Shown here: positions 34,246-62,188 of the stretch, piece by piece
Layout: every line of letters starts with the position of its first letter
How positions within the stretch are numbered: the stretch's first letter is position 1
Source of the DNA: Planctomycetaceae bacterium
GTDB lineage: Bacteria > Planctomycetota > Planctomycetia > Planctomycetales > Planctomycetaceae
DNA: 64,000 bases
NCBI GenBank assembly: GCA_021732845.1
Contig: JAKFUF010000010.1
Span: forward strand, 62,001-126,000
Direction: 5' to 3'
Position numbers and translations under genes: made by a program
The notes under the pieces: model-generated
What the model saw: the letters and a program-made list of their open reading frames with translations, nothing else
Databases searched by the model: none
What the model was told of the DNA's origin: nothing

Positions 34246-34983
34246 AGACGCCTGGCGCGACGGTCAGGAATTCGGCAGGCCGAGCAGAGGATTGAAAGGT
34301 ATCAGGGATGAGGCTGTTGCTGGCGGCCGATCAAAGCACATCCTTCTTCATCCTTTTACATCCTCTTTCATCTTGTCCAACCTTCCTGACAGATCCCGCT
34401 TTCCAACAACCTGCGGCCCCAAAGACGCGGGGATGGCCAATGGTTTCAGACAAAATGTTGAAATATTAATTGACATTCTGCTGGACTCTCCGTAGAACTG
34501 GAATGTGTACATTTGTGTCATTCCAATTTTAGGCGAAGCTCAGGTCGGCGGATCGTGGAACACGCGGCATATCACAGGCTGTTCGAGGGCACGTCGCGGC
34601 AGATTGCCGGTGAAGTTGTCCTTCGCTGCGCTTTATTGGCGCTTGCCGTCGTGAGGTTGGCGCAGCGGCTGATGCCAATTCCACAAAGGCTCATCACTGG
34701 CATGGCGAGGTTCTGCCGCCAAGTCGGTGAAGCGTGGCTGTGTTTCGCCAAGACTACATTGGCTGCTGGCTCATGCAAGTGTGTGGCTCAGTCTGGCCCG
34801 GTTGTCGATGCCGGCTTGAACCCGCTCACGCGGGGAACTTCGACAATTCCGTCCGCGAACGTTTGTGCCACTTCCATTTCAGGGCAGACCGCTTCTCGAC
34901 TGGCCGCGAGCCACGAACTCCAGGCTCAGGCTGGCATTCAGGATCCACGTCGACCATCAGGGTTCGCGCCGCCGATCATCAAC
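34246..34983. other. Non-coding region after the giant gene
   Basis: No recognisable protein. A pyrimidine-rich run with recurrent CATCC and TTCATC words lies at about 34340-34376. An AT-rich segment (34435-34545) includes an inverted repeat, ACTGGAATG facing CATTCCAAT around 34497-34532, with one mismatch. The long frames that cross this region and the adjacent minisatellite have no protein-like composition. Confidence 0.45.
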
Positions 34984-35416
34984 GCTGTCGACCACACGCG
35001 CTGCGCCCCCTATCAGCACGTTGTCGACTGCACTCGTTGCGCCCCCTATCAGCAACACTGTCAACCGCACACGCTGCGCCGCCTGTCAGCACATTGTCGA
35101 CTGCATGCGCTGCGCCGCCTGTCAGCACGTTGTCGACTGCACTCGTTGCGCCCCCTATCAGCACACCGTCGACTGCACTCGCTGCGCCGCCTATCTGCTC
35201 ACTGTCAACTACTCGCGCTGCGCCCCCCATCAGCACGTTGTCGACTGCATGCGCTGCGCCCCCTGTCAGCACGTTGTCGACTGCACTCGTTGCGCCCCCT
35301 ATCAGCACACCGTCGACTGCACTCGCTGCGCCGCCTATCTGCTCACTGTCAACTACTCGCGCTGCGCCCCCCATCAGCACGTTGTCGACTGCATGCGCTG
35401 CGCCCCCTATCAGCAC
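34984..35416. repeat. 36-bp minisatellite, 12 tandem units
   Basis: Twelve head-to-tail units, 433 bp in all (12 x 36 plus one inserted base near 35055). The unit core is GTTGTCGACTGCACTCG, then TTGCGCCCCCTATCAGCAC; units differ at a few positions. A block of four units (35129-35272) is repeated almost exactly at 35273-35416, so there is a 144-bp higher-order duplication. There are no spacers, so this is not a CRISPR array. Because 36 is a multiple of three, several frames stay open, but none has a plausible start or context. Confidence 0.9.
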
Positions 35417-35578
35417 ACCGACTGCTCTTGATTGCCACCCCAATCGAAAATCGAAAATCAAACTTGCTGTTCGTGCGAGGCAGACACACCTGATCTGTCG
35501 TCCGTCCTTGAAAACACGCGGGACATGAGCGATTGATGAACCTTGATCTGTTCCTGTCCCGCGTGTGTGGATTTCGTT

Positions 35579-36580: not shown

Positions 36581-36619
36581 CGCCGCGCAGTGAATCGGTT
36601 CCGTCAATTCAGCCACGAA

Positions 36620-37939
36620 ATGGACAATTCGAAGATGCCATGGATCAGTGAGCAGGCCGACAGCATTTCCCGTGAGGCCCTGACGGCGGTGCTCGATCAG
36701 GCGGTGGCCGAGGCCCGCAAGCGGATCTGTGGGACGCCCCGCCGCGTGTTGCTGCTGCCGCCGGACATCACCCGCATGCACTCCGGTGCCGGGTGGATCA
36801 CCGAGGTGTTTTACGAGCGGTTCAAAGCCGAGGCGGATGTGCATGTCATCCCGACGCTCGGGCAGCATGAGCCACACACGCGCGAGCAGAACCGGCAGAT
36901 GTTCGGGGCGATCCCGCACGAGCGGATTCACCCGCACGACTGGCGCGGCGGCGTGGTGCGTGTGGGCGAGATTCCGGCCGACTACGTCCGCGAGATCAGC
37001 GGCGGCGTGGCCGACTGGGCCATCCCCGTCGACCTCAACCGGATGCTGATGGAAGAGAAGTGGGACCTGATCATCAACATCGGGCATGTCGTCCCGCATG
37101 AGGTGCTGGGGTTTGCCAACCACAACAAGAACTACTTCATTGGGCTCGGCGGCAAGGACACGATCTGCGCCTCGCACCTGATGGCGGCGAGCTGTGGCAT
37201 CGAAAACAACCTCGGCAACCTGCTGACCCCGGTGCGGCAGTGTTTCAACAAGGCCGAAGACGAACTGCTCGGCCGGCTGCCCGACATGTACGTACAGGTC
37301 GTCCTCGCCCGCGATCCCGGCGGCCACCTGGTCCATACCGGAGTGCATATCGGCGATGACCTGGAGACCTACCTCTCCGCCGCCCGGCAGGCCCGCGAGC
37401 AGAACATCACCGTCTTTGAAGAGCCGCTGAAGAAGGTCGTCTGCGTGATGCAGGGCGATGAGTTCTTCAGCACCTGGGTGGCCAACAAGGCGGTGTACCG
37501 CACCCGCATGGCGATGGCTGACGGCGGCGAACTGCTGATCCTCGCGCCGGGCCTGAAACGCTTCGGCGAGCAGCCCGACGTTGACGCCTTCATCCGCAAG
37601 TATGGCTATGTGGGAACGCCACGGGTGATGGAAATGTACCGGCAGAACGCCGACATGCAGGATCTGGCGCATGCCACGGCGCACCTGATTCATGGCTCGT
37701 CCGAGGGCCGGTTCACCATCTGCTATGCGCCGGGCCACCTGTCGCGGCAGGAGATTGAAGGGGTGAATTTCGAATACGCCGATCTGAACGAGATGCTGGC
37801 ACGGTATCCGCTGGAGAAGATGCAGCAGGGGTTCAATGATGTCGGGGGCGAACGGGTGTTCTTCATCCCCACCCCTTCGGCCGGACTCTGGTCCACGCGG
37901 AACCGCCTCTACGGCCGCCAGACAGGGTTCGGCGCATGA
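36620..37939 (+). CDS. LarA-family nickel-pincer racemase/epimerase
   Basis: This 439-residue protein belongs to the lactate racemase (LarA, DUF2088) family, whose members use a covalently bound nickel-pincer cofactor to racemise or epimerise alpha-hydroxy acids. Key residues are visible with the spacing of Lactobacillus LarA: His83 (LGQHEPHT) for His108, His160 (HVVPHEVLGF) for His174, Lys170 ten residues later for the cofactor-binding Lys184, and His186 sixteen residues further for His200. PDITRMHSG matches the N-terminal family motif. Start codons at 36590 (GTG) and 36635 are alternatives. It overlaps exbD by 4 bp. The substrate is not necessarily lactate; many clades have other hydroxy-acid substrates. 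Confidence 0.88.
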   Translation: MDNSKMPWISEQADSISREALTAVLDQAVAEARKRICGTPRRVLLLPPDITRMHSGAGWITEVFYERFKAEADVHVIPTLGQHEPHTREQNRQMFGAIPHERIHPHDWRGGVVRVGEIPADYVREISGGVADWAIPVDLNRMLMEEKWDLIINIGHVVPHEVLGFANHNKNYFIGLGGKDTICASHLMAASCGIENNLGNLLTPVRQCFNKAEDELLGRLPDMYVQVVLARDPGGHLVHTGVHIGDDLETYLSAARQAREQNITVFEEPLKKVVCVMQGDEFFSTWVANKAVYRTRMAMADGGELLILAPGLKRFGEQPDVDAFIRKYGYVGTPRVMEMYRQNADMQDLAHATAHLIHGSSEGRFTICYAPGHLSRQEIEGVNFEYADLNEMLARYPLEKMQQGFNDVGGERVFFIPTPSAGLWSTRNRLYGRQTGFGA

Positions 37940-61972: not shown

Positions 61973-62188
61973 TAACGGCAGCCGGTGTTCCGCACGATCG
62001 CGCATCGGGATTACAGCGAGCTTCCCATCGTCAAGAACCCGGCCAACCTTGCCGGGACCCTGCCGCGCGCCGCACCGAACCTTCCCGTTGCCGCGCTGAT
62101 CTACTAAAAACAACGGCAAATCAACCAGGTGCCAGACTTTCCGCCGGGCATCGGCTTGAACCCAAACACCACATGCCTGAGACCGCCG

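Follow-up and report, generated by a model that had tools for sequence, protein, structure and literature searches.

The 64,000-nucleotide stretch analysed here (the window; positions 62,001 to 126,000 of contig JAKFUF010000010.1 of a Planctomycetaceae bacterium, assembly GCA_021732845.1) contains a tandem array of 36-bp units, which is probably translated as the 3' half of one gene within a lineage-specific family that numbers at least 13 loci in the genome. The genome is a 9.25-Mb draft in 262 contigs, the window lying within a 158-kb contig (C2), and the count of family loci, which comes from pattern and profile searches, may be too low. An earlier note on this DNA had taken the array for a non-coding satellite with no start codon or context for translation. 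Neither part of that view was upheld: a predicted promoter (34470-34510), a GTG codon at 34555 and an open reading frame (ORF) extending to 35493 are present, and the array appears to form the 3' part of this ORF, the start frame being open at 11 of the 11 array-bearing loci examined.

Tandem Repeats Finder, with a threshold of 50, called the array at 34966-35418 with 12.5 copies of 36 bp (score 524) and also with a period of 144 (3.0 copies, score 707), both scores being far above chance. The array is real, although it starts at 34966, about 18 bp before the 34984 first given for it. Its parts are as follows:

34966..35418, + strand: 36-bp tandem array, motif GCGCCnCCnRTCAGC, 12.5 units; related arrays lie elsewhere in the genome
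34966..35002, + strand: unit 1, 37 bp, with one extra base (unit listing and alignment)
35039..35075, + strand: unit 3, 37 bp, with an extra base near 35055 (unit listing and alignment)
35129..35272, + strand: 144-bp block, first copy
35273..35416, + strand: 144-bp block, second copy

The duplication of the four-unit block reported in the earlier note was confirmed, since 143 of 144 bases are identical between the two copies (the lone difference is G at 35265 and A at 35409), and it bears out the suggestion that the array expanded recently. The inserted base near 35055 was also found, but it is not the only one: units 1 and 3 are both 37 bp long, implying that the array carries two +1 shifts. 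The exact number of units is uncertain, as a draft of this kind does not readily resolve how many near-identical 144-bp blocks are present.

Upstream of the array, and continuing through it, the following features were identified:

34450..34519, + strand: predicted promoter and 5' untranslated region (UTR) block, family-specific (alignment with eight paralogous loci; profile match)
34470-34475, + strand: TTGACA, followed by a 17-nt spacer, TAGAACT (34493-34499), TGTAC (34506-34510) and GTGTC (34515-34519), elements within the predicted promoter block
34555..35493, + strand: predicted gene with GTG start, 312 aa, reading through the whole array in an open start frame
34603..34671, + strand: N-terminal hydrophobic helix, residues 17-39 (IAGEVVLRCALLALAVVRL...), Kyte-Doolittle 19-residue maximum of 1.95
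34615..34794, + strand: N-terminal domain common to loci C83, C152 and C1b (helix, then an L-C-x-FAKT-type segment), from a four-member profile

The promoter block matches the family profile in its own genome with E=1.9e-12, the window locus itself being part of that profile; a scan with a generic sigma-70 consensus misses it. The profile built from the N-termini of C152, C83, C1b and C2 gave E values of 6e-34 to 2.2e-26 for its own four members and recovered a fifth, partial copy at the end of contig C41. At that contig end (C41:1-500, L139) an inverted piece resembling the tail of the C152 array abuts the family N-terminus, and the end is probably chimeric or rearranged.

A search of the genome for the repeat unit, as the earlier note had proposed, revealed that the window unit is not unique: sister arrays were found on contigs C75 and C200, with a short fragment on C117, and searching in translation brought in C70 and C152. 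Some 490-610 nt ahead of the arrays the sequences were alike, having the form TTGAC-N18-TAnnAnT-N6-TGTAC followed by a GTRTC-like box. A pattern derived from four loci had six matches genome-wide, namely the source four plus C43 and C67, both of which carry arrays downstream (26 units of 18 bp and 2.9 units of 159 bp, respectively); the presence of arrays downstream of newly found promoters is a prediction that could have failed. A mismatch-tolerant form of the pattern added C69, C83 and C122, all with downstream repeats, the other matches having none, and a profile of nine promoters added C87, C24, C120 and C1b (C1:182944), together with a weak match at C1:19468 that has no clear member downstream.

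The loci share a common layout. A predicted promoter and 5' UTR are followed by a GTG or ATG start, and nearly all members then read as an ORF in which a single hydrophobic helix near the N-terminus leads through a linker of variable sequence into GCGCCnCCn-type units. Such repeats are present in all members but C120, in the same orientation as the promoter, and their unit lengths across the family are 17, 18, 19, 36 and 159 bp, with 19-bp units in C24 and 17-bp units in C1b. The locus C120 (L121) has the promoter and the N-terminal helix and no array; its 70-aa ORF lies directly before an ATPase-like gene.

The C75 and C200 arrays are apparently one locus split by assembly. The end of C75 (L002) and the start of C200 (L003) have a common right flank, with 46 nt of flank plus 39 nt of array, and the order of units before the flank differs. 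This conflict suggests copy-number or allele variation, or misassembly, and copy number probably varies, as the earlier note had suggested it may. The same break inside a sister array, together with the 262-contig state of the draft, would favour an assembly artefact in the number or order of the repeats. We consider this highly improbable for the window array, which lies inside a 158-kb contig, shows a consistent pattern of unit variants and has sister arrays at many loci, so that only its exact copy number is in doubt.

The strict promoter pattern was absent from the 169 other genomes of the taxonomic family. No convincing relative emerged when 58 relatives were compared at the DNA level and about 390 genomes of the phylum at the protein level, when 149 genomes of the taxonomic family were scanned for a pair of APP motifs, or when the N-terminal profile was run on relatives. 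Among 84,980 species genomes, matches to a two-unit pattern were isolated and scattered over unrelated taxa, and plasmid and phage collections gave no match.

The evidence for translation comes mainly from the region ahead of the arrays, where the start frame contains 0 stops in 1,680 codons across 11 array-bearing loci and the other two frames contain 44 and 27. Start codons were partly picked with the open frame in view; even if any of the three frames could be chosen at each locus, we estimate the probability of a stop-free start frame at 11 loci by chance to be about 1e-10, a figure built on the 2.1% stop rate of the other two frames. In support of this reading, indels between the N-termini of paralogs (3, 27 and 87 nt) are all multiples of three, and those in the 5' UTR are of 1-2 nt; one N-terminal hydrophobic segment was found in 12 of the 12 members scanned; and the N-terminal domains can be aligned as protein within subgroups. 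Inside ten arrays the start frame has 1 stop, which is terminal, and the other frames have 9 and 7.

Several observations weigh against this reading. The ratio of nonsynonymous to synonymous differences (pN/pS) between N-terminal paralogs is about 0.8-1.0, so that strong protein constraint is not evident, and differences are spread evenly over the three codon positions (169/139/168), some blocks being poorly aligned; pN/pS values of array units within and between loci are mixed, and codon preference along four loci is too weak to pick a frame. Pfam, NCBIfam and PHROGs gave nothing above the curated cut-offs for the window ORF or the paralogs examined, and AlphaFold modelled the C152 N-terminus as helices only, at low confidence (mean predicted local distance difference test score, pLDDT, of 53.6). 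Finally, some copies look decayed, since the reading frame of C87 is cut off early by a stop and that of C83 terminates within its short repeat. In one clean pair, C152-C1b, second codon positions were spared (22/6/18), as expected if only hydrophobicity matters, in what is one pair.

The near-neutral substitutions of the N-termini would also be expected if the loci were copies of a dispersed non-coding satellite or a miniature inverted-repeat transposable element (MITE)-like element with its own promoter, the upstream open frame being incidental. The model for such an element is BrickBuilt, a minisatellite-bearing MITE of Porphyromonas gingivalis present in 19 copies (PMC4596501). Like BrickBuilt, the window family is lineage-restricted, multi-copy and intergenic, with one repeat motif and a common leader-like promoter block (PMC4596501), and the 17- and 19-bp units, which keep the DNA motif and not the frame, fit this explanation. 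The BrickBuilt leader has promoter activity and the repeat number of the element varies between strains (PMC4596501); the promoter of the window family is a predicted one. Furthermore, the leader and tail of BrickBuilt end in inverted repeats, and the element is described as intergenic with no protein expression (PMC4596501); in the window family, in contrast, we saw no common tail, no terminal inverted repeats and no common flank more than about 45 nt upstream of the -35 element, and the ORF is kept open at all 11 array-bearing loci examined. On balance we regard this alternative as unlikely. No mobile-element boundaries and no common tail or flank were found among 12-13 loci.

If the arrays are translated, as we favour, they are not translated in one frame. 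Relative to the start, the APP frame of the array lies at 0 in C2 (first unit), C152, C1b, C67 and C70, at 1 in C122 and C75, and at 2 in C83, C43, C69 and C24; the 19-bp units of C24 and the 17-bp units of C1b cycle through all frames. These differences imply that the repeat DNA outlives changes of frame. Two coding frames had been considered, first CAPYQH/CATHQH and then APP, and each was dropped because further paralogs showed all three frames. Most units are stop-free in every forward frame, which for several arrays is expected from base composition alone, so that selection for stop-free units is not required. In the window array the two 37-bp units shift the reading from APPIxx to CAPYQH and then to LRPLSAH repeats without a stop, and the tail of the ORF is rich in Leu and Arg.

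These shifts could alternatively mean that the window copy alone is a pseudogene, derived from a gene that formerly coded for protein and lost its repeat frame through two +1 insertions. Unit 1 indeed carries on the APP frame from the N-terminus (APPIINAV), which later units do not; nevertheless, no stop arises, and the intact-looking C75, C122, C43 and C69 use non-APP frames too, which makes this explanation distinctly unlikely.

The persistence of the motif through frame and period, always in the sense orientation, also raises the idea that the functional molecule may be the transcript, with the repeat RNA (or DNA) motif GCGCCnCCn(A/G)TCAG serving as a binding array and translation being secondary. 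The arrays align better than the N-termini: the repeat DNA of C2 and C75 aligns at about 72%, but their upstream coding parts do not align by blastn, so that the two loci share the array only, and the motif GCGCCnCCnnTCAG is absent from the window outside the array. Such likeness might reflect a DNA motif that is either maintained or spreading between loci; common descent or gene conversion would explain it as well. Moreover, there was no RNA structure beyond shuffles (z = +1.9) and no Rfam match at the cut-off, with one sub-threshold match only, so that a structured non-coding RNA is not supported. The frames upstream of the arrays also appear to be selected to stay open, and we judge a binding array to be quite improbable.

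Returning to the coding interpretation, the helix and the low-complexity tail lead us to infer that the family product would be a small protein, either secreted or anchored in the membrane, with a disordered tail under loose constraint. The array would change fast by slippage and unequal recombination, as the 36-, 18-, 19-, 17- and 159-bp units and the 144-bp duplication suggest, and the ORF reads through related GCGCCnCCn units or, in one short case, ends in them. Because the units have few or no stops in any forward frame, a frameshift within the array would swap the whole repeat peptide without truncating the protein. A bolder proposal, to which we assign a low probability, is that selection acts on the repeat motif itself, as DNA or RNA, and that the motif has spread among loci while different members translate it in all three frames. 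Indels would then swap the whole tail peptide without truncation, which would generate frameshift-driven diversity of a surface protein.

Variable repeats in surface-type proteins and the tolerance of tandem repeats to frameshifts are already known in general; a proteome survey reported that a frameshift within a protein tandem repeat creates a different repeat peptide, in many cases with more arginine (PMC12871928), to which the Leu/Arg-rich tail of the window ORF may be compared. That survey covered proteomes in general (PMC12871928); here it is the paralogs of a single family that between them read one repeat motif in all three frames. PARCEL elements, which encode a 25-residue palindromic amphipathic protein motif, likewise consist of a tandem repeat that is shuffled within genomes and joined to diverse ORFs of unknown function whose products are targeted to the membrane (PMC2996958). 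In PARCEL, however, the frame matters because a defined protein motif is encoded, while the window family keeps the DNA motif as the frame changes (PMC2996958), and the window array, with a 36-bp unit (12 codons) and no inverted repeats found in it, falls outside the PARCEL definition.

A survey of prokaryotic coding satellites, which lists 29 satellites in Rhodopirellula baltica, ties them to unit lengths divisible by 3; the only dispersed non-coding families with long units that it reports are those of Leptospira interrogans and Methanocella conradii (PMC6749651). The window family differs from these classes in being dispersed, predicted to be translated and inclusive of 17- and 19-bp units (PMC6749651). 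Satellites are usually sorted as coding, with a unit that is a multiple of three, or non-coding, and a family with 17-, 18-, 19-, 36- and 159-bp units at the 3' end of open genes, in different frames, breaks this rule of thumb. We did not find, in the databases, genomes and literature searched, another dispersed, promoter-sharing family in which the DNA motif is kept and the frame and unit length vary among paralogs. The family provides a case in which the diversification of membrane-type proteins by tolerated frameshifts can be tested, and illustrates that a minisatellite seeming non-coding in one window can prove to be the tail of a gene once its paralogs are found.

An 87-bp palindromic repeat resembling repetitive extragenic palindromes (REP-like; GAGCGAGGAACCCC...GGCGGCGCAAGCCGCC...GGGGTTCC) occurs more than once in the genome, and within the members C67 and C83 it is in frame. 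It was seen in these stretches:

L075:1981-2448: 87-bp REP-like repeat
L096, about 1665-1751: 87-bp REP-like repeat
L122:1946-2126: 87-bp REP-like repeat

With respect to the neighbourhood, the next gene, about 160 bp downstream, encodes LarB. The downstream gene is co-directional at 10 of the 11 loci where it could be called, only modestly above the usual bacterial level; read-through into the neighbour, or an effect on the lar genes, is therefore possible. The LarA-like gene at 36590-37939 scores as a nickel-dependent putative hexonate epimerase (NF052594) and not as a lactate racemase. Upstream, 13684-34245 is a single ORF of 6,853 aa whose N-terminus matches weakly, below the cut-off, a Pfam planctomycete extracellular motif, and genes neighbouring the array in the window match PVC-type heme-binding families and, below the cut-off, planctomycete-extracellular families.
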